Source: a virus
IMG/VR virus record: IMGVR_UViG_3300009488_000030
Span: 1 to 43,723 of that record
Length of the DNA: 43,723 bases
Strand: one strand, 5' to 3'
Position numbers and translations under genes: made by a program. Each line of letters begins with the position of its first letter. Within the stretch, counting starts at the first letter, position 1. This document shows positions 2,007 through 33,823 of the stretch, one piece after another. The notes beneath the pieces are model-generated. The model was not told where the DNA came from, ran no database searches, and worked only from the letters and a program-made list of their open reading frames with translations.

Positions 2007-4355
2007 TTATAATTTAGGACGTATTTTTCTTATAGTTTCGTCGCTTTCTAATCTTTCTTTAACTTTCTCTTTTATAGCATCAGCTAATTCTTCTGGAGTT
2101 ATACCTTCAGCAGTTACTTCTATTCTTTCAATGTTAATTTCAGGTTTTATCCAAGTTTCTTTACCTGCTATTCCTTTAGGAAGATGTCCCTCTCTCACTA
2201 ATTGTTCATATTCTGCTACCTGTTTATTAACTTCCGCAATCAGTCTTTCTGATTCTTTTCTTTGTTGTTCAGCAGATAATGGTTGACCAGCTCCTGCACT
2301 TACTGTAACTCCTTCCATTGCTCCTAAAAATCTTTCTCTAAATTTATCAGTAGCTGTAGTCATTTTTTCTAACCAATTTTCAGAAAAGGTAGTAGGAATA
2401 TCTTCTGCGAATTTTTCAGACAATATTGAAACAGGAGATATATCTATATATGGAACTTGACCAGTAGCTTTCCAATATTCACGAAGAGCTTCCTGTTGTG
2501 CTTCAGTTAATAAAGCCCAATTTTCTAAAATCATTTCTCTCCATTCATCAGTAGCTGTTCTCCACCAAATTTCCATCGTTTTTGGTTCAAATGTTAAAGC
2601 TTCCATCAAGTTACGAGTTCTTTCTTGAGATTCTTTATCTTGAACTTGTCCAGCTTTTAAATATTCGATATATAAATTTTGCATAACTTTTCTAACTTCT
2701 TCTTTTCTTTTTACTTCTTCTTGAATTAAAGCATTTAATCTTATTTGTCGTTGAACTCTATACTCTGCATCTGTCATAAAAGCTCGTTCCATCTCTAAAG
2801 ATTCTAATCTAAATCTGGCTATTTCTGTTGCTGTAGCTCCTAAAATTTTCATTAGAGTTATTTCGTTTTTTAATTCTTCTAGTCGAAGTTTATCTCCAGC
2901 TAACAAATCATCTTGTCTTTCTTGTTCGTCTTGTTGCAATCCTCTTCTTTCTATTTGTTGTTTCTTTCTAAGTTCTCTTAATTTTTCTTCTGCTTTCATT
3001 AAATCATCCATATAATGTCCTGGAGTTTTAAAACTTAATCCAGTTTTTTCCCAATCTTTTCTTGCTGTTTCCATCCAAACACCCAATACACCTAATTGGT
3101 ATCCCATATAACCAAGTATATCTCCAATGCCTGTTGCAACTGGTCTTATAGCTTCTAATGTATCTGCTAATTGTTTCAAAGCGTCAGCATAATCTCCAGT
3201 TCCTTGAGTAGCTGTAATAAAATCCTCTGCTAATATTTTCATAATATTAGACATTCTTTCCATTTGACCTCTAACAGTATCCATTTTAAGTTCGGCGATT
3301 CTTTTAGTAAATCCTTCTATTTCTTTATTTGCTTTTTCAATATCTTCTCTTAACCCTTCAAATGATTCTAAAATTAATCGAGGAGCAACAGCACCTCTTG
3401 TAGCAAAAATTTGTTGTAATGCTTGTGATTGTTCAAAAGTTAGTTTTCCTTGAATTTTCATTACAGCATTAATTTCTTCCATTGTATCTAAGAAATTAAT
3501 AGGTTTATCAGCATCAAACGTAATACCAAATGTAGATGCTAATTTATCTGCATTTTTGCTTATTTGTAATATTGTTCTACCTGTTAATCGTCCAGTTCTT
3601 CCTGCTCTTAACATACGAGTATTTAAAAAACCGATTATAGTAACCAAATCTGTAAAACTATCAGATAATCCTGAAATGTATGGAGCTAATTTAGTATAAC
3701 CTTGCACTAATTCGTCCATCTGAACATCTTGTGTTGCATATGTAAAAGTTAAAACATCGGTTATTCTTTGGAATTTTTCTGATGCAGATGCTCCTTCTAA
3801 TATATATTTACCCATAGTATTATAAACACCAGCAACTGCTCTTGCCATTTCTTTTCCTTTAATTCCTGTTCCTGTCATAGCATCTACAGTATGTTCAAAT
3901 GCAGACATAGCTTCGGCAGTGTTTAAACTTGAGGTTCTTAAAAAGTAAAAAGTCTCTGCTAATTCTTTTAATGGAATTCTTGTTGTAACTGCCACATCTT
4001 TAATTAAAATTTTAATTCTAGCCATATCAGAAGCTATTTGTTGAGTAGTTCCATGAACTACTGTTTGAATTCTGGCTAATGCGTCATCTAAATCCAAATA
4101 TCCTTTCACCATATCGCCAATTGTTCTAAGAACAGCCATAAAAGCTCCACGCAATAATAACCATATAGGAATAACCATTAAGGCTCTTTTAGCTAAACCT
4201 CCCATCATTTGACCATAAGTTTGAGTAGCTTTCGATGCTTTCTGAGTTGTTTTAGTAACTTTGCCTTGAGTTCGTTCTATATTTTTCATTCCTTGCACGA
4301 CCATTTTATCGCCTTTTATTGTCGCAAGGAAACTAATAATATATTGTTTATCCAT
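2007..4355 (-). CDS. Tail tape measure protein, 782 aa
   Basis: This is the longest helical gene in the tail module. The N-terminus carries coiled helices followed by a hydrophobic stretch (MVIPIWLLLRGAFMAVL, about residues 55-75). A TP901-type tape-measure core follows, seen in segments such as IPLKELAETFYFLRTSSLNT and VAGVYNTMGKYILEG. Residues about 430-560 are a charged coiled coil. Such proteins set siphovirus tail length and help DNA entry. A 782-residue protein would suit a medium-long tail. It sits between chaperone-like genes and distal tail genes, as expected. Confidence 0.9.
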   Translation of the reverse strand: MDKQYIISFLATIKGDKMVVQGMKNIERTQGKVTKTTQKASKATQTYGQMMGGLAKRALMVIPIWLLLRGAFMAVLRTIGDMVKGYLDLDDALARIQTVVHGTTQQIASDMARIKILIKDVAVTTRIPLKELAETFYFLRTSSLNTAEAMSAFEHTVDAMTGTGIKGKEMARAVAGVYNTMGKYILEGASASEKFQRITDVLTFTYATQDVQMDELVQGYTKLAPYISGLSDSFTDLVTIIGFLNTRMLRAGRTGRLTGRTILQISKNADKLASTFGITFDADKPINFLDTMEEINAVMKIQGKLTFEQSQALQQIFATRGAVAPRLILESFEGLREDIEKANKEIEGFTKRIAELKMDTVRGQMERMSNIMKILAEDFITATQGTGDYADALKQLADTLEAIRPVATGIGDILGYMGYQLGVLGVWMETARKDWEKTGLSFKTPGHYMDDLMKAEEKLRELRKKQQIERRGLQQDEQERQDDLLAGDKLRLEELKNEITLMKILGATATEIARFRLESLEMERAFMTDAEYRVQRQIRLNALIQEEVKRKEEVRKVMQNLYIEYLKAGQVQDKESQERTRNLMEALTFEPKTMEIWWRTATDEWREMILENWALLTEAQQEALREYWKATGQVPYIDISPVSILSEKFAEDIPTTFSENWLEKMTTATDKFRERFLGAMEGVTVSAGAGQPLSAEQQRKESERLIAEVNKQVAEYEQLVREGHLPKGIAGKETWIKPEINIERIEVTAEGITPEELADAIKEKVKERLESDETIRKIRPKL

Positions 4356-17241: not shown

Positions 17242-18234
17242 TTAAACAGCTAACGTAGCATCTGATGTGCATATTGCCAAAGGATTGACAATTGCCATTA
17301 CTAAGCTCTCATAAGCATAAATACTATAGGCTAACAGATTCGAGACTGTCGAACCAGATACGCCTGGGTCTGCTATGACAGGAGTATTACCAACAATAGT
17401 TGCTCTCTGAGCATTATCAATATCTGCACCCATAAGTTTCGCAATTTCTGGAGATATTCTCCTTCTTACGAATTTTACAGGTTTTCCCTGTGCGAGACGG
17501 CTATTTTTCGCAACCATTATAATATGATTGGTATCCAATAAAACCGCATCACTAGAACCGTTATGGACTTTACCAAATACTTTAACAACTTCAATACCCA
17601 CGTCTTTCAACATTTCTTTAAGACCGACTCTATAAGTGAATCCGCCAGCTTCGGCGTTTTCTTTCTCATAAGTATCAATCTTTTCTTTAACTGTTGAACC
17701 AACGAGAGCTATGAAATTATCGCCATAATCTTCAAGCAAATGCTTCATCGCTATAAATACATCATAAAGGTCTTCACCTGTTACTGCGTCTCTTGACTGA
17801 ATAGATGCACCAGACGGAAGATTGTTTTGAAAGTTACCAGTATCAGAACTACCTTCAATAGCATTAATAAGAAGTTGTAACTCTCTCTTATCTAAGCCTC
17901 TGGTAATCTTCTCTTTCTTTCTTGCTAACACCTGGGTATCAGGGCTACCAAGAACATCATCCACTAGCACATATTCCATTCTTGAATTGAAACCTGTGAA
18001 ACTAATCTGTGTATCCCCTAACGGATTTTTCTTAATGGTTGTTATTACGCCATCTCCGTCAACTGCGAGAATATACTCGGCTTCGTCATCAACAGATGAA
18101 TATATCCAAACCTTTTCACCAGGTTCTGCTGGCGGTAGAATATCAGCAACTGCTCCTAATTCAAAAGCAACTGGTTTTCTGATGTCTACAGGTTCACCTA
18201 TTAATCTTGAAATTTCTAATTGTAGATTTTTCAT
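17242..18234 (-). CDS. Major capsid protein, 330 aa
   Basis: The size, position directly after the protease/scaffold gene and fold pattern fit an HK97-fold capsid subunit. There is an N-arm, a beta segment (KVWIYSSVDDEAEYILAVDG), a spine helix region (DLYDVFIAMKHLLEDYGDNF) and a P-domain ending with ATIVGNTPVIADPGV and a C-terminal helix (NLLAYSIYAYESLVMAIVNP). The start is ATG 18234 with AAAGAGAA upstream. A strong terminator follows, as expected for an abundantly made protein. Confidence 0.85.
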   Translation of the reverse strand: MKNLQLEISRLIGEPVDIRKPVAFELGAVADILPPAEPGEKVWIYSSVDDEAEYILAVDGDGVITTIKKNPLGDTQISFTGFNSRMEYVLVDDVLGSPDTQVLARKKEKITRGLDKRELQLLINAIEGSSDTGNFQNNLPSGASIQSRDAVTGEDLYDVFIAMKHLLEDYGDNFIALVGSTVKEKIDTYEKENAEAGGFTYRVGLKEMLKDVGIEVVKVFGKVHNGSSDAVLLDTNHIIMVAKNSRLAQGKPVKFVRRRISPEIAKLMGADIDNAQRATIVGNTPVIADPGVSGSTVSNLLAYSIYAYESLVMAIVNPLAICTSDATLAV

Positions 18235-24820: not shown

Positions 24821-26590
24821 TTATTTCTTTTTACTTTTCTTTTTAGATTTTACCTGTTTAATTTGAGACCATGCTGTGCGAGAAGCCAGACTTTCCGCTT
24901 TTTTAGCGTCTTTATATTTCTTCATATAAAAACTATAAGCATTATTGAATATTTTCATCCATGATTTTTGTTTAGATGGACTTAATTTTTTCTTAACAGA
25001 ATCAGGAAGACTTTTTATAGTTTGATAGGGAGCTATTTCTAAATCCTTTTCTTTTGATTTTATTATATTTTTTTGAGTAACCGCTTCGCCACATTTAGGG
25101 CATTTTACCCAACCCATTCCTGCTTCAGTTTCTGCGAGCATATCGAAGATATGTTTACATTTCGGACATTTAACTGGAGCTTCGTATTTACCTACATTGT
25201 ATTTATCTTTATCATCTAATTTATCTGTAGGGATTGGGTTGCCATCTTTATCAGTATCTTTTCCAGGAATATCTATACCTACCCCCTCTCTATTTTCACG
25301 AATATGAGGATACATGGTATAATCGTCCCCCTCTTTAGCTTCCTTGTTTCTTCTTAATTTTTCTGTGCGATAGGAAGTTTCTCCTACTACTTCACAATAA
25401 GTTTGATTAGATATTTGTCCTCTTTCCCACATTAATCTCATCTGATTTTTAAAATCATCAGTTCTAAAAACAGAAATAGGAGAAGCAGTAATATAAAAAT
25501 CTCCATTTATCCATTTCTTATGTTTTTTATTTTTCTCTATAATTATGAAAATTAAATCTTTTAAAATCTGTTTGAAATCTTCTACTCCAGTTGTAACTTC
25601 TCCTATAAAAACTTTTGGATTTAATATGCTTTCTCGTCGAGAAGTAGATGTAGCTTCTATAACATCAATAAATCCTAATCCTGATAAAATATTTCTTTCT
25701 GCTACTACAAATAAATCTGGCTCAAAAATAGTTGACAAATCAGGTATAACATTTTTAAGTTCTTCATCATAGTTTACGGCTCTAATTGGAGTCTTTATCT
25801 GTGTATCACCAAAATTTCCTGAACGAATTTCATTCATCAATTTTTGAAAATCTGCAATTACCTTCTTTAATTCAGAATCACTATAAGTTTTAGTTCCGCT
25901 TGTAGCTAAACCTTCACTGCCTTTTTTCACTAAAAGAAGGTATGGAATTATTTGGTCTAAAATTGTTGTTTGTTTGTCTTTGAGAGATTCTATTATTTTC
26001 GAATTATGATAAATACCTCGTTTTATAATAAAAGGAGTTGGGTATTTAGTAAACCATCTTCCATTAGTTTTGGCAAAAATAACATTTTTGTCCAATTCAT
26101 GTTTCATATCTCTACCAAGATAATAATCATAGCCAAATAATGATAATTCATTATTTTTTTCATCTTTATCCTTAGCATAAATACTGCCTCCATCTACAAA
26201 ATACATTTGTGTAGGAAGCATTACCCCTTTTATTGATTCCCATTTTTGGATTTTTAAAACTGGAAAAGAAGAATATTTCCATCTTTCTTTAAAATATTCT
26301 TTAGCAAGTGGTTTTATTCCCGAAGGAATTTTTCCTTGATAATTAATATTTAATCCAACAAGCCATTGCCTCATTATTTCAGTAAAATTCTCATTATTTG
26401 TTTCAATACTAAAATCAACACTCGCACTATCAACTGCAAAATCTGTTAAAGAATCAACTAAACCAGACATATCATCTTTTAGCATCTCTTTAACCGATGC
26501 TACTTGTTCATGAAATTCTTTAGGAACTATAATTTTCTTCAATAACATTGAAAAAAGTGAATTTAATATTAGTCCATTTTGATTTGCCAT
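24821..26590 (-). CDS. Portal protein with C-terminal zinc ribbon and ChaB-like domain, 589 aa
   Basis: The first 440 residues have portal character: a helical start, wing segments (SSFPVLKIQKWESIKGVMLP) and ERNILSGLGFIDVIEATSTS, and the gene follows the terminase genes. The extra C-terminus is unusual. Residues 475-500 form a C4 zinc ribbon (CPKC...CPKC), and residues about 526-580 read SLPDSVKKKLSPSKQKSW ... AYSFYMKKYK ... RTAWSQIK, matching the ChaB family pattern. A basic tail (KSKKKSKKK) ends the protein. Portal rings form the DNA gate of the head. Confidence 0.85.
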   Translation of the reverse strand: MANQNGLILNSLFSMLLKKIIVPKEFHEQVASVKEMLKDDMSGLVDSLTDFAVDSASVDFSIETNNENFTEIMRQWLVGLNINYQGKIPSGIKPLAKEYFKERWKYSSFPVLKIQKWESIKGVMLPTQMYFVDGGSIYAKDKDEKNNELSLFGYDYYLGRDMKHELDKNVIFAKTNGRWFTKYPTPFIIKRGIYHNSKIIESLKDKQTTILDQIIPYLLLVKKGSEGLATSGTKTYSDSELKKVIADFQKLMNEIRSGNFGDTQIKTPIRAVNYDEELKNVIPDLSTIFEPDLFVVAERNILSGLGFIDVIEATSTSRRESILNPKVFIGEVTTGVEDFKQILKDLIFIIIEKNKKHKKWINGDFYITASPISVFRTDDFKNQMRLMWERGQISNQTYCEVVGETSYRTEKLRRNKEAKEGDDYTMYPHIRENREGVGIDIPGKDTDKDGNPIPTDKLDDKDKYNVGKYEAPVKCPKCKHIFDMLAETEAGMGWVKCPKCGEAVTQKNIIKSKEKDLEIAPYQTIKSLPDSVKKKLSPSKQKSWMKIFNNAYSFYMKKYKDAKKAESLASRTAWSQIKQVKSKKKSKKK

Positions 26591-28266
26591 TATTTACTCC
26601 TTACTTGTTTTGTCTTTGTAGTTGGTTTCTTTTCTTTTGCCCAAGAAGATGCTCCTATTCCCCAATCTTGTTTCATTATTGGTGTTTGATTAAAATCTTT
26701 TTTAAGCCATTGAGCTATCGCAAATACTCTCCACGCATCAAATAAATGGTCGTTTTCTGCAATACATTTGTAAGTTGTTCGAGTTCCTGATTGTAAAGCC
26801 ATAACAGAACTAAACTGAGTTTCAAATTTATAATCTATAGGAATTACACATCTACTATCGTATAAAAGAGCTTTTAATCTTCTGACCGACCATTCTGACA
26901 TAAATTCTGTTTTGGTTATTGGTTTTCCGTTTTTAAGAATTATTTCATTTTTTTCGTTCTTTTCAAAGTCTATAGGAATCTTAGATGCACCTGCATATCT
27001 AACTATATTTTCTTTAGTATAAGATTTTTCTAAATGGTCGCAAAGAATTCTTCCGAAAGCCTCTCCACAATCTATTGCTATTAGATTAGCTTTTATTTTT
27101 TCGGCTATCCATTTAAAAATTTCGAGCTGTTCGACAAATTTCAAATTATACAAAACAATATTATACAAATATATATATTTAGTTCCGACTTCAGAATGTA
27201 TAATGATTTCGGTATGAGTATCTCCAACATCAGCACAAATAAACATTCTTTCAGCATTTTTAGGTCGTTCTACTACTATAGTATCTTGGAATTTAGAATA
27301 TCTCTCTTTCTTAATTTCAAACCTTTTAATTTCTATTTTTTCTTTATAACATTCTTTAACTCTATCCATATCAAACTCAGAAACACCATCTTCAACTACT
27401 TCGCCTTTAACAAAGACCCGATAATTAATCGAATCTACTCCGCCAAACTCTTTTAATCTTTCCTGTTTTTGTTTTTCATTCCAATAAGGATTAACATATT
27501 GAGGAAGATTTACTATCTTAGCCTTATTTGCAAAATTATGAAAGATTTTACCTGTTGGAGAATGTTCTGTAAAATTTGTCATTCCTGATAATCTTATTAC
27601 TGCACCTAACTCAGAAAGAGCATCTTGTCTTTTTTCATACACTTTTTCTGTTTCAAAACTTGCTTCTTCAATCCAAAGTTTTTTCATATGTTTACCAAAG
27701 AACTGATGTCCAGGATTTTTGGATTGTAAATTCATATTTATTCCATCAAGAAACCAGCCATTTTTTGCTTCTATTTTATATGGATGAGCAGTTCTAATAC
27801 TTAATTTCCATAATTTTAATATTGGATGATTATCAATCGCTGGCTTTATTGCATCTAATACGCCTCGTAAATGGATAGTATCCAATGAAGCACATCCAGT
27901 CCACCAACCGTCGTCATGGAGCATAGAGAGAGGAATATCTAATTTTTCCGTGCAAAGAGTCTTACCGTATTTTCTTGCTCCTAAACTAATTGTATCTCCA
28001 ACATTTTTTCTTAATTCAAACCTTTCTTTTGCTTTTTCCTTTTTTGTCAAATCTTCCCAATTTTCTGTCAAATTTTCCATATTTTCGTCTATCATAGATT
28101 CGTAAGAAGGTAAAGGAAATTGATATAAACGTAATTCTCCAAATTTATCTTCTTCAAATTCAGATAAACTATCAAAATTTGAAAATAAAGATTCTATCAT
28201 AGCGACGGGATAATGCCACATCTCCATGAATTGAAGTTCTTCTTCGTCTATTTTTTTTAAAAGCAT
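26590..28266 (-). CDS. terL: Terminase large subunit, 558 aa
   Basis: This is the ATP-driven DNA packaging motor and nuclease. A Walker A motif GARKYGKT is at residues 96-103, Walker B KKLWIEE ends at residue 201, and a coupling-type segment IRLSGMTNFTEHSPTGK follows. The RNase H-like nuclease domain has MFICADVGDT (D346), LIAIDCGEAFG (D399) and DHLFDAW (D506/D510) in the expected order. The gene starts 38 nt after small terminase ends and its stop overlaps the portal start (TAATG). Confidence 0.93.
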   Translation of the reverse strand: MLLKKIDEEELQFMEMWHYPVAMIESLFSNFDSLSEFEEDKFGELRLYQFPLPSYESMIDENMENLTENWEDLTKKEKAKERFELRKNVGDTISLGARKYGKTLCTEKLDIPLSMLHDDGWWTGCASLDTIHLRGVLDAIKPAIDNHPILKLWKLSIRTAHPYKIEAKNGWFLDGINMNLQSKNPGHQFFGKHMKKLWIEEASFETEKVYEKRQDALSELGAVIRLSGMTNFTEHSPTGKIFHNFANKAKIVNLPQYVNPYWNEKQKQERLKEFGGVDSINYRVFVKGEVVEDGVSEFDMDRVKECYKEKIEIKRFEIKKERYSKFQDTIVVERPKNAERMFICADVGDTHTEIIIHSEVGTKYIYLYNIVLYNLKFVEQLEIFKWIAEKIKANLIAIDCGEAFGRILCDHLEKSYTKENIVRYAGASKIPIDFEKNEKNEIILKNGKPITKTEFMSEWSVRRLKALLYDSRCVIPIDYKFETQFSSVMALQSGTRTTYKCIAENDHLFDAWRVFAIAQWLKKDFNQTPIMKQDWGIGASSWAKEKKPTTKTKQVRSK

Positions 28267-29068: not shown

Positions 29069-29097
29069 AGTATACCACATAAAAGTCTCCGTGTCAA
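29069..29097 (-). promoter_or_regulatory. Late promoter for the terminase operon
   Basis: TTGACA (29092-29097), 17-bp spacer, TATACT (29069-29074) with an extended -10 TGG. The -35 is followed at once by CGGAG, as in the two other leftward promoters. Transcription would begin near 29062 and give a leader of about 137 nt. Confidence 0.88.
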
Positions 29098-31589: not shown

Positions 31590-31664
31590 TGGTTACGGAG
31601 AATGGGGTCGAACCATTATTTCCAGGTTCAAAGCCTGGCGTATTACCAATTACACTACTCCGTA
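31590..31664 (-). tRNA. tRNA-Gln (anticodon TTG)
   Basis: A full cloverleaf is visible. The acceptor is TACGGAG/CTCCGTA with U1-A72, the weak first pair typical of Gln tRNAs. The D stem is GTGT/ATAC, the anticodon stem CCAGG/CCTGG around CTTTGAA, and the T-loop TTCGACC. The 3' CCA is encoded. Its 5' end touches the CCA of tRNA-Ala. Confidence 0.95.
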
Positions 31665-31739
31665 TGGTGGAAGCACTCGGAGTCGAACCGAGAACGTCTG
31701 AGTGCAAATCAGAAGTTTTCCCAATTAAACTATGCCCCC
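31665..31739 (-). tRNA. tRNA-Ala (anticodon TGC)
   Basis: Acceptor GGGGGCA/TGCTTCC contains the G3-U70 pair that alanyl-tRNA synthetase needs. Anticodon stem TCTGA/TCAGA with loop TTTGCAC; T-loop TTCGACT; CCA encoded. It abuts tRNA-Gln and tRNA-Phe without spacer. Confidence 0.95.
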
Positions 31740-31815
31740 TGGTTGAGGGAGTAGGACTTGCACCTACGACACTTTGTTTTTCAGACAAATGCTCTACTAC
31801 CTGAGCTATCCCTCA
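31740..31815 (-). tRNA. tRNA-Phe (anticodon GAA)
   Basis: Acceptor TGAGGGA/TCCCTCA, D stem GCTC/GAGC, anticodon stem TTTGT/ACAAA with loop CTGAAAA, CCA encoded. The T-loop reads TGCAAGT, so position 55 is G instead of U. Confidence 0.95.
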
Positions 31816-31891
31816 TGGTAGCGGAGATGGGATTTGCACCCACGACCTTTTGCTTATGAGGCAAACGAGCTAACTACTGTTCCACTCCGCA
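31816..31891 (-). tRNA. Initiator-like tRNA-Met (anticodon CAT)
   Basis: Anticodon loop CTCATAA. Position 1 cannot pair with 72 (T against T), and the D stem has A11-U24; both are marks of bacterial initiator tRNAs. The three G-C pairs normally found at the base of the anticodon stem are only partly present (TTTGC/GCAAA). The T-loop has G55. CCA is encoded. Confidence 0.88.
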
Positions 31892-31899
31892 AAATAAAA

Positions 31900-31957
31900 A
31901 CTTGACTAGGGATGATAAATTAGTCCAGCAGGATTCCCCACTAGAGCCTAGTCAAGT
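31900..31957 (-). other. 11-bp stem-loop between the 42-aa gene and the tRNA array
   Basis: A perfect 11-bp inverted repeat (31900-31910 with 31947-31957, ACTTGACTAGG) encloses 36 nt. On the minus strand it is followed by TTTTTATTTT and then, within nine bases, by tRNA-Met. It could be a leaky terminator, an RNA-processing signal or a small structured RNA. No tRNA cloverleaf fits it. Confidence 0.6.
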
Positions 31958-31970
31958 CGGGGTAAATTAT
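31954..31970. repeat. 17-bp repeat, copy 1
   Basis: AAGTCGGGGTAAATTAT occurs here and again at 33517-33533 in the same orientation, bracketing the divergent control region. This copy overlaps the end of the 42-aa gene. Confidence 0.7.
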
Positions 31971-32095
31971 TTTTTCTTTCTAGATAAGGATGCTAGCATA
32001 TGTCTCTTGACTTTTCTAAATGCTTTAATTGCTTGCCAAGTAGTCTTATCTAAATTGCATTGCCTATAAAACTTACCTTTTCCGTCTCCTCTCAT
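31967..32095 (-). CDS. Small basic protein upstream of tRNAs, 42 aa
   Basis: AAAGGAA lies 6 nt before ATG 32095; the frame (MRGDGKGKFYRQCNLDKTTW...) ends with the basic run SLSRKKK. It contains one Cys and a helical segment TTWQAIKAFRKVKRHMLASL. It is the only gene between promoter 32208-32236 and the tRNA array. Unknown function; an RNA-binding role is possible from its charge but not shown. Confidence 0.6.
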   Translation of the reverse strand: MRGDGKGKFYRQCNLDKTTWQAIKAFRKVKRHMLASLSRKKK

Positions 32096-32116
32096 TTTCT
32101 ATTCCTTTTATATAAG

Positions 32117-32181
32117 ATAAGTGTCTGGTTATGGTCATTGTAGTCTATCATGATATAGACACTCCCATAATAGCCACTTAT
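32117..32181 (-). other. Structured 5' leader of the tRNA-region transcript
   Basis: The leader folds into a long imperfect hairpin: ATAAGTG/CACTTAT at the base, TTATGG/CCATAA in the middle and GTCTAT/ATAGAC at the tip. The stem ends about 20 nt before the 42-aa gene start. It could control stability or translation; I recognise no known riboswitch. Confidence 0.55.
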
Positions 32182-32207
32182 TTTTCCTTACATATTCCTT
32201 CACTATA

Positions 32208-32236
32208 AGTATATCATATAAATCTCTCCGTGTCAA
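32208..32236 (-). promoter_or_regulatory. Leftward promoter for the 42-aa gene and tRNA array
   Basis: TTGACA (32231-32236), 17-bp spacer and TATACT (32208-32213) with extended TGA. CGGAG follows the -35, as at the two other leftward promoters. Confidence 0.88.
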
Positions 32237-32283
32237 CTTTTGGTTACAATTCGCCGACCAAACCTCTGGTTACTCACGCCGAC

Positions 32284-32403
32284 TATCCACCCCTATTATT
32301 CCTATATTGGGTAGTAGTATCCACAATTTTCTACCCTTTTCCACAAGATGTGGTAGTATCCATACCCCCTTTCCAAGAATCTATACCATATCTGGTATCC
32401 ACA
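32284..32403 (+). other. DnaA-box-like cluster (replication origin candidate)
   Basis: Near matches to the DnaA box TTATCCACA occur at 32317-32325 (GTATCCACA), 32337-32345 (TTTTCCACA) and 32395-32403 (GTATCCACA). Weaker forms start near 32283 and at 32356. Spacing is about 20, 19 and 39 bp. The cluster sits at the point where all genes switch strand and is followed by AT-rich DNA. Confidence 0.5.
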
Positions 32404-32434
32404 CAATTACCAAACACATTACCATATTTCAACT

Positions 32435-32580
32435 ATCTGTTAGGTAACTACTACTAAAATACTATTATCTACTAAAATAGTAATAAACTAGTTATAAAGT
32501 AGTCAATCAAATAGTAAGTCTGTTAATTGACAAGACTTATATCAATTGTCATGATAATCATCACATAAGAATCAAATAAA
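32435..32580. other. AT-rich stretch next to the DnaA-like boxes
   Basis: About 145 bp of AT-rich DNA with a repeated CTACTAAAATA (around 32448 and 32470) and no ORF or ribosome binding site. Its place beside the TATCCACA cluster suits a duplex-unwinding element; that is inference. Confidence 0.4.
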
Positions 32581-32589
32581 GCGATTAAG

Positions 32590-32716
32590 CCCCGTATTCG
32601 CTTCATAGATTTAGACCACATGCTAAATTTAGTCTTTGGGGTAATTCGGAGTTACTCTTACCTTTATATCGAAGCGGAGAAGAGCTAAACGTTACCCCCT
32701 GGGGGGTAGGGGGGTT
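32590..32716. other. Gene-free segment with paired words and a C/G-run hairpin
   Basis: No convincing ORF. CGCTTC near 32599 can pair with GAAGCG near 32672, CCCC near 32591 with GGGG near 32639, and a tight hairpin TACCCCC-TG-GGGGGTA lies near 32694. It ends just before the extended -10 promoter. It may be regulatory or part of an origin. Confidence 0.4.
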
Positions 32717-32738
32717 GACGAATGGTATCCAGTGGGAG

Positions 32739-32747
32739 TGATATACT
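32739..32747 (+). promoter_or_regulatory. Extended -10 promoter for the non-coding region
   Basis: TGATATACT, the same extended -10 as the other phage promoters, but no -35 at 17 bp (TTGACG occurs 21 bp upstream). It would start transcription near 32754, in a stretch of about 850 bp without a convincing gene. Confidence 0.55.
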
Positions 32748-33078
32748 TTATATAGGTTTGTATATGTTTATGTAGGTAGGTCGCACCTGTGTCGCAGAGC
32801 TTAGGGCATGTTTAGGAGAAGGCGTAGAAAGGGGTTATTTGGCGATTAGGAGAGGCTGGCGAGCCGATATGAGGCTCGGCTAGGGGGTCGTATGGACTGG
32901 GCTGGTTTGTGCTTAAAGTTCCTTAATTGGTATAGAAAGGTCTATAAAGGTGTAGTTTATGGTGGTTTCTGGTCAAATTTGGTAACAATAGGGGTGTATA
33001 ATATACATAAATGGTCAACCGCTAAATCGCACCCCACGCCCTTTTTTGTTGTAAGTCCTTATAGTATAACGATTGAGA

Positions 33079-33107
33079 TGTGTTTATATTATAAGAGTAT
33101 AAACACA
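33079..33107. repeat. Perfect 10-bp inverted repeat
   Basis: TGTGTTTATA and TATAAACACA separated by 9 nt. As RNA it makes a stable hairpin; as DNA it could be a dimeric operator. It is the longest perfect hairpin in the gene-free region. Confidence 0.8.
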
Positions 33108-33134
33108 TTAAGGGTTTCAAAGTGGATATAGTTT

Positions 33135-33232
33135 CAGACTTTGGGGGTCTGGAGATTTGCCCTTACGGGCGAGCTAACTTTTGAGTATTCCTTACGGGGG
33201 CTATCGCCCCCTGCCAGTTATTGATTACTGGC
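33135..33232 (+). other. Four consecutive short hairpins
   Basis: CAGAC/GTCTG (33135-33151), GCCC-TTAC-GGGC (33159-33170), GGGGGC-TATC-GCCCCC (33196-33211) and GCCAGT/ACTGGC (33213-33232) follow one another. This spacing looks like a multi-branched RNA and does not resemble coding sequence. Confidence 0.65.
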
Positions 33233-33248
33233 TTTCCTATTCCTGCAA

Positions 33249-33425
33249 TTATTAACAAGCTGGCTATTGAGCATTACTTAACAGGGCATATGTTTTTATA
33301 AAGTATGGGTGAAAGTCTTTTTAAAGTTTTGGGGGTAAACTGGGTATTTATAATTATTAACGCTGGGCTGGCTTTCGGGATAATTGTAACGCTTAACAGA
33401 GCTTACTTTCGTATTATTAACAGGG
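33249..33425 (+). repeat. Duplicated module with ATTATTAAC and CTTAACAG words
   Basis: ATTATTAAC occurs near 33249, 33353 and 33413; CTTAACAG near 33277 and 33392. GCTGGCT follows the first two ATTATTAAC copies. The order ATTATTAAC - GCTGGCT - CTTAACAG occurs twice, about 105 bp apart, so a longer unit seems duplicated. Confidence 0.6.
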
Positions 33426-33477
33426 ATTTCGGGGGCGGTTGTTGATTTATTTTTTAATTGTATACATGATTATGTTA

Positions 33478-33507
33478 TGTAAGGCGTTATGGTGTAAGGA
33501 GTTAGGG
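33478..33507 (+). repeat. 15-bp iterons, pair 1
   Basis: Two head-to-tail copies, TGTAAGGCGTTATGG and TGTAAGGAGTTAGGG, with no spacer. A second pair starts 78 bp further on. They likely bind a phage regulator or initiator. Confidence 0.75.
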
Positions 33508-33516
33508 ATAAAGGGA

Positions 33517-33533
33517 AAGTCGGGGTAAATTAT
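33517..33533. repeat. 17-bp repeat, copy 2
   Basis: Identical to 31954-31970. This copy lies between the two iteron pairs. Confidence 0.7.
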
Positions 33534-33555
33534 ATTTTGGGAACTAACTTTTGTC

Positions 33556-33585
33556 TGTAAGTGGTTGTGATGTAAGGTGTTATGG
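33556..33585 (+). repeat. 15-bp iterons, pair 2
   Basis: TGTAAGTGGTTGTGA followed directly by TGTAAGGTGTTATGG. The second copy matches the first iteron of pair 1 at 14 of 15 bases. The pair ends 22 bp before the -35 of the rightward promoter. Confidence 0.75.
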
Positions 33586-33607
33586 GTAAAAAATAACTTA
33601 ACAAAAC

Positions 33608-33636
33608 TTGACTTCTATTTTGTGGCGTGATATACT
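33608..33636 (+). promoter_or_regulatory. Rightward early promoter
   Basis: TTGACT (33608-33613), 17-bp spacer and TATACT (33631-33636) with extended TGA. Lacks the CGGAG block of the leftward promoters. Drives the first early genes. Confidence 0.85.
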
Positions 33637-33661
33637 TGTAGTGGATAGGGGGGCAAAAGCA

Positions 33662-33823
33662 ATGAATACAAGACAAGCAAGGCAAATACAAAAACGGGCA
33701 AGGCAAAGGCAACGGATAGCGTGGCGAATAAAAGAGATAAGGTCAGGCAATTTTAAAAAGCAACCGTTTTTTGATAGTATTTTAAGTTTAAAACAAGTTG
33801 CAAGCAATTATCCGAAATTATAA
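33662..33823 (+). CDS. Small basic protein, first early gene, 53 aa
   Basis: Starts MNTRQARQIQKRARQRQRIA about 26 bp after the -10 of the early promoter. The first half is extremely Arg/Gln-rich and helical, likely nucleic-acid binding; the second half (FFDSILSLKQVASNYPKL) is ordinary. A G-rich tract precedes the ATG. As the first gene transcribed it may be a regulator, which is inference. Confidence 0.6.
   Translation: MNTRQARQIQKRARQRQRIAWRIKEIRSGNFKKQPFFDSILSLKQVASNYPKL

Follow-up and report, generated by a model that had tools for sequence, protein, structure and literature searches.

Replication of phage T4 begins at several origins in which a promoter, an AT-rich unwinding element and an R-loop are combined, synthesis starting from the R-loops; oriF and oriG are primed in this way, and the MotA-dependent middle promoters that serve such origins lie inside gene regions (PMC3016281). 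R-loops are favoured by G-rich transcripts made off C-rich templates (PMC4412123). More generally, an origin can show itself as a point where GC skew changes sign (PMC10820185; PMC7111523). GOLLD and ROOL are large non-coding RNAs borne by phages and associated with tRNA genes (PMC12286853).

Here we describe a large gene-free region, referred to as the hub, which shares some features with each of these systems. As in T4, an AT-rich segment is present, an RNA-capable G-rich strand lies beside an extended -10 motif and a gp43-like family-B polymerase is encoded in a relative; unlike T4, the hub is one large gene-free region at the point where two arcs of genes diverge, and no conserved promoter leads into its G-rich arm. 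Bacterial oriC-type bidirectional origins resemble it in the skew sign change, the genes leading away, the AT-rich segment and, in the window, the direct repeats, but its DnaA-box-like repeats are not kept in relatives and the shared core is unrelated to the DnaA box. The likeliest reading of the hub, held with moderate confidence, is a replication origin and control region; a large RNA of the GOLLD or ROOL kind is less probable.

Genome layout and relatives

The window, that is, the whole stretch of DNA analysed, is a 43.7-kb virus record. Its left arm is read leftward and encodes a tape-measure protein (2007-4355), a baseplate-like protein and a papain-like protease, together with what are, by position, size and motif, the probable capsid protein (17242-18234), portal (24821-26590) and large terminase (26590-28266). 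The aligned large-terminase motifs GARKYGKT and IEEASFE resemble Walker A and B. Four tRNA genes occupy 31590-31891 on the minus strand, and immediately upstream of the tRNA-Met gene (leftward strand) a perfect 11-bp inverted repeat, ACTTGACTAGG/CCTAGTCAAGT, is found within 31900-31957, a segment with a local fold z of about -2.9. The right arm runs rightward from 33663 and holds about 35 small genes, mostly without recognised function.

The hub DNA had no match among 50,697 phage records, the terminase, portal and capsid had none in an annotated phage collection, and scans of genome collections found nothing. Scans with the protease, large terminase, baseplate protein, hub hairpin and promoter motif returned only a near-identical contig (L012) or unrelated proteases. 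One relative, G001, was obtained by a capsid scan and three others, G004, G005 and G006, by a 35-aa terminase alignment; the G006 core, used as a query, gave chance-level matches only. G001 is an 82-kb contig with a capsid 76% identical to that of the window and synteny across most structural genes, and the contigs of G004, G005 and G006 measure 10, 89 and 104 kb. G005 and G006 carry exact end repeats (81 and 114 bp) and are therefore probably complete. The window and these four relatives make up the five-phage comparison, in which G001, G005 and G006 serve as whole-genome contigs.

G001 has a T4-like set of replication genes: its family-B polymerase resembles T4 gp43, and it also encodes a Prim-Pol/DnaB-like protein, RecA and a 5'-3' exonuclease. 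The rightward arc of this relative also encodes a 526-aa protein with intein-splicing and LAGLIDADG domains (L019:10138-11718), and a run of protease genes comprising a Clp protease, two trypsin-like peptidases and an M50 peptidase is found at L019:6963-10134, in addition to the papain-like protease that adjoins the hub.

The gene-free hub

The first-pass annotation had drawn 32739-33455 as a candidate large structured non-coding RNA; the natural unit is the entire hub (1.57 kb), of which that interval is the right half. No convincing gene was found between 32096 and 33662. The features are as follows.

32096-33662, no strand: gene-free hub, with the leftward structural arc on one side and the rightward small-gene arc on the other; coding signal absent from 32601 onward
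32096-32203, minus: leader of the leftward operon; z -2.96 and -3.4, 6.9 bits with the R1 model
32208-32236, minus: leftward promoter TTGACA-N17-TATACT with extended -10
32240-32420, no strand: C-rich left arm, with the highest C window of the record
32446-32545, no strand: the 100 nt richest in AT within the hub, at 22% GC; a candidate unwinding element
32739-32748, plus: extended -10 motif TGATATACTT with no -35, the promoter claimed in the first-pass annotation
32756-32915, plus: peak of the G-rich right arm, 62 G in 160 nt
32978-33073, plus: conserved core, ACAATAGGG ... TTGCTAAnTnnGACCC-like block (33019-33034) ... TTGTTGTAAGTCCTTAT (33046-33062)
33078-33108, plus: 11-bp perfect hairpin directly 3' of the core
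33135-33232, plus: run of hairpins (33135-33151, 33159-33170, 33196-33211, 33213-33232)
33608-33636, plus: rightward promoter TTGACT-N17-TATACT with extended -10, for the small-gene arc

A gene-free hub of 0.95-1.9 kb, flanked by outward-facing promoters, is present at the arc divergence in all five phages, and these edge promoters follow the family pattern TTGACA-N17/18-TGnTATACTT, in full or in weaker form. Nearly all genes of G001, G005 and G006 lie in two arcs that part at a single divergence point and meet again at a single convergence point, and the divergence point is the sole gap longer than 550 bp (1280, 946 and 1898 bp, respectively).

Inside the hub, four of the five phages have sequence rich in C towards the left and rich in G towards the right; G005, the AT-richest relative, has no strong arms. 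The reported G-richness of 32739-33455 is borne out (26% G and 14% C, where the right arm has 19% and 10%), the best 160-nt window reaching the 99.95th percentile of the record. Its non-coding character likewise holds, given that the codon usage of the right-arm genes is not matched by any frame of the two strands and that the open reading frames are only short and unconvincing. One of these, a 46-aa frame at 33305-33445, would encode a hydrophobic peptide and was rejected, having no clear ribosome-binding site and poor codon use.

The C-rich left arm contains direct repeats of GTATCCA at 32317, 32356 and 32395, spaced by 39 bp, with an extra copy at 32725. Three near matches to the DnaA box, with one mismatch each, are present in the hub of the window and absent from the hubs of the four relatives, and a DnaA-dependent oriC was rejected as a family trait, the DnaA-box cluster not being kept there.

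Other repeats were observed in and around the hub. The leftward promoter region recurs in the genome (29012-29097, 31556-31590, 32153-32236 and 9687-9773), and the copy at 29097 lies upstream of a probable small-terminase gene. A 20-nt repeat, TGTTATGTAAGGCGTTATGG, is present in three copies (75-100% alike) at 33473-33585, between the interval 32739-33455 and the rightward promoter. Exact copies of GGGGGCGGTT start at 33431, 33827, 34009 and 34572, three of the four directly upstream of small-gene starts, and this sequence is possibly an extended ribosome-binding or regulatory motif.

The conserved core and the hairpin that follows it

Only about 100-150 nt of the hub aligns among the five phages, and the first 100 columns of this alignment contain hardly any gap. 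The window is 86% identical to G006 over 33031-33073 and identical to G004 over 33044-33062; in G001 and G005 the middle block of the core is best kept and the last block is degenerate. The core is single-copy. Leave-one-out profiles, from which the target genome was excluded, ranked it first and inside the hub in all five genomes, although the test is slightly biased in its favour since the rows were taken from one joint alignment. Best against runner-up scores were 48.3 and 1.0 bits for the window, 50.7 and 1.3 for G006, 33.1 and 4.0 for G004, 10.4 and -1.2 for G001, and 12.6 and 8.7 for G005.

A hairpin follows the core at +37 to +66 in all five phages, with stems of 11, 10, 7, 6 and 6 bp and unrelated sequences (Fisher p 2e-4, the offset range having been picked after the data were seen, and the two 6-bp stems being unremarkable alone). 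Such a hairpin would suit either RNA or single-stranded DNA. The alignable part has a consensus fold of -1.1 kcal/mol with an unfavourable covariation term, so far as the low power of five sequences permits. Because the edge promoters point outward and no start is conserved inside the hub, a DNA role for the core is more economical than an RNA role.

A leader RNA on the opposite strand

Just downstream of the leftward hub promoter, G001 and G004 have leaders that share three nested helices, each with one compensatory double change, and one further pair is broken in G004. When 448 kb were searched with a model built from these two leaders, the top match outside the model was the leader of G006, at 30.9 bits (E 2.5e-4). 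The leader RNA was placed in relatives as follows.

L018:2640-2722, minus: leader RNA
L038:3403-3490, plus: leader RNA
L036:6595-6680, minus: leader RNA

No Rfam family matched it. A leader RNA with covariation is real at the hubs of G001, G004 and G006, where it lies on the opposite strand. Its counterpart in the window (32096-32203, minus strand) folds well (z about -3) and is not a clear member; it may have diverged or been replaced, given that the model score is only 6.9 bits.

The hub as a proposed replication origin

We propose that the hub is a bidirectional replication origin together with a divergent control region between the gene arcs of a little-known phage family, and regard this as somewhat more likely than not. 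The cumulative GC skew minimum of the window is at 32619, 401 bp from the core, and the circular minimum lies 352, 140 and 212 bp from it in G001, G006 and G005. The origin reading is based on this proximity, on the presence in three relatives of a sole gap above 550 bp exactly where the arcs diverge, on a sequence core in non-coding DNA that is single-copy and top-ranked in the hub of every genome, and on the C-rich left and G-rich right arms (four of five) and the hairpin after the core (five of five). The replication genes of G001, R-loop initiation in T4 and the tendency of G-rich transcripts to form R-loops led us to the combined proposal of an origin and control hub.

In the mechanism that we propose for initiation at the hub, an initiator would bind the conserved core, and perhaps also the repeats in the arms, the DNA would open at the AT-rich centre, and two forks would depart along the arcs, each co-directional with transcription. 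If the G-rich arm is transcribed, the G-richness of the right-hand strand would make a persistent RNA:DNA hybrid more likely, and this R-loop could prime leading-strand synthesis as at T4 origins.

The main weakness of the origin reading is that all genes face away from the hub, so that the position of the skew minimum is confounded with gene direction and transcription alone could yield the same skew. Against it also stand the DnaA-box-like repeats, present in the window only, and the lack of strong arms in G005; no initiator protein was identified. An R-loop on the right would need a promoter there, and the one available is weak and lacks conservation. The first-pass annotation had placed a promoter of the phage's own type at 32739, and this could not be upheld: the site reads TGnTATACTT, but its -35 matches at most 2 of 6 positions at any allowed spacing, compared with 5-6 of 6 in the other promoters of the type. 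Only this weak -10 stands before the G-rich arm, an arm that four of the five phages possess, and none of the four relatives has a promoter like it at the equivalent place.

Alternative explanations

The foremost alternative, which we regard as rather unlikely, is that the hub serves divergent transcription control only, with operators and insulating hairpins set between outward promoter sets, the core being a binding site for a phage regulator and having no part in starting replication. The outward promoters that flank the hub, in family or weaker forms, favour this reading, as does the DNA-like conservation of the core, with near-fixed spacing and absent covariation, and the skew does track gene direction everywhere. 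However, up to 1.9 kb is a great length for operators and nothing else, the distance from the core to each promoter is 200-600 bp or more, and strongly skewed non-coding arms with a sign change within the hub exceed what operators need.

We consider it improbable that the locus encodes a large structured non-coding RNA, whether of the GOLLD/ROOL type or of a new class, transcribed rightward from about 32754. Several observations behind this idea are sound, including the extended -10 motif and the absence of genes. The interval contains nine perfect stems, each 5 bp or longer and with loops of 3-9, against a shuffle mean of 3.9 (nine reached in 2 of 300 shuffles). The duplicated module is also real by local alignment (it scores 32, the mean of shuffles being 19.9, and 2 of 200 shuffles do as well), its copies being only about 74% alike, and local folding downstream of the core is significant in three of the five phages. 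The whole 704-nt fold, however, is ordinary against shuffles (z -0.56), which argues against a large structured RNA; the excess structure is confined to about 33021-33260 (120-nt windows, z to about -3.9). A scan found no good terminator stem at the T-run near 33455.

As with GOLLD and ROOL (PMC12286853), the locus is phage-borne and non-coding, its size as originally delimited is similar, and tRNA genes lie close by in the window phage and G004. Neither covariance model matched the window at the gathering threshold or, over 31900-33700, at E<=10, and the relatives were negative as well; Rfam as a whole was negative at both levels. The tRNA array is indeed a neighbour in the window, but as a conserved setting it fails, with no tRNA near the locus in three of the five phages. 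The part that aligns is short (about 100-150 nt) and, as far as five sequences allow, without covariation, whereas an ornate RNA of a new class would show covarying structure over hundreds of nucleotides; a lack of covariation in relatives is an outcome that the first-pass annotation had itself named as refuting its RNA. The GOLLD/ROOL reading preferred there fails on these counts and on the absence of a conserved promoter. Of the two other possibilities that had been offered, an origin is favoured by the comparative evidence and a new RNA class is not.

A packaging, end-formation or recombination site is very improbable: the single-copy core with its hairpin and the nearness of contig breaks to the hub (within about 0.3 kb in G001 and 2.4 kb in G005) would fit one, but the probable terminase genes are some 3-6 kb off, the G006 contig spans the hub and ends at least 28 kb away, the exact end repeats of G005 and G006 suit arbitrary breaks in a circular or permuted genome, and no integrase was recognised among the scanned proteins.

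Implications

Returning to the proposed replication origin, it can be speculated, as an idea that we hold to be doubtful, that the hub represents a type of phage origin not described before: the core, about 95 bp long, and a hairpin free to vary in sequence are set between C-rich and G-rich arms, and two forks are primed by RNA or by hairpins, and that the leader which starts the leftward operon in G001, G004 and G006 belongs to a new class of covarying RNA.

The comparison removes a false lead to GOLLD and ROOL, and the covarying leader RNA of the relatives is a separate, testable RNA candidate. In the phage collection searched, nothing matches the hub, terminase, portal or capsid of this phage family. 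For this family, the core of about 95 bp within a hub of 1-1.9 kb offers a small and precise target for how genome copying is started.
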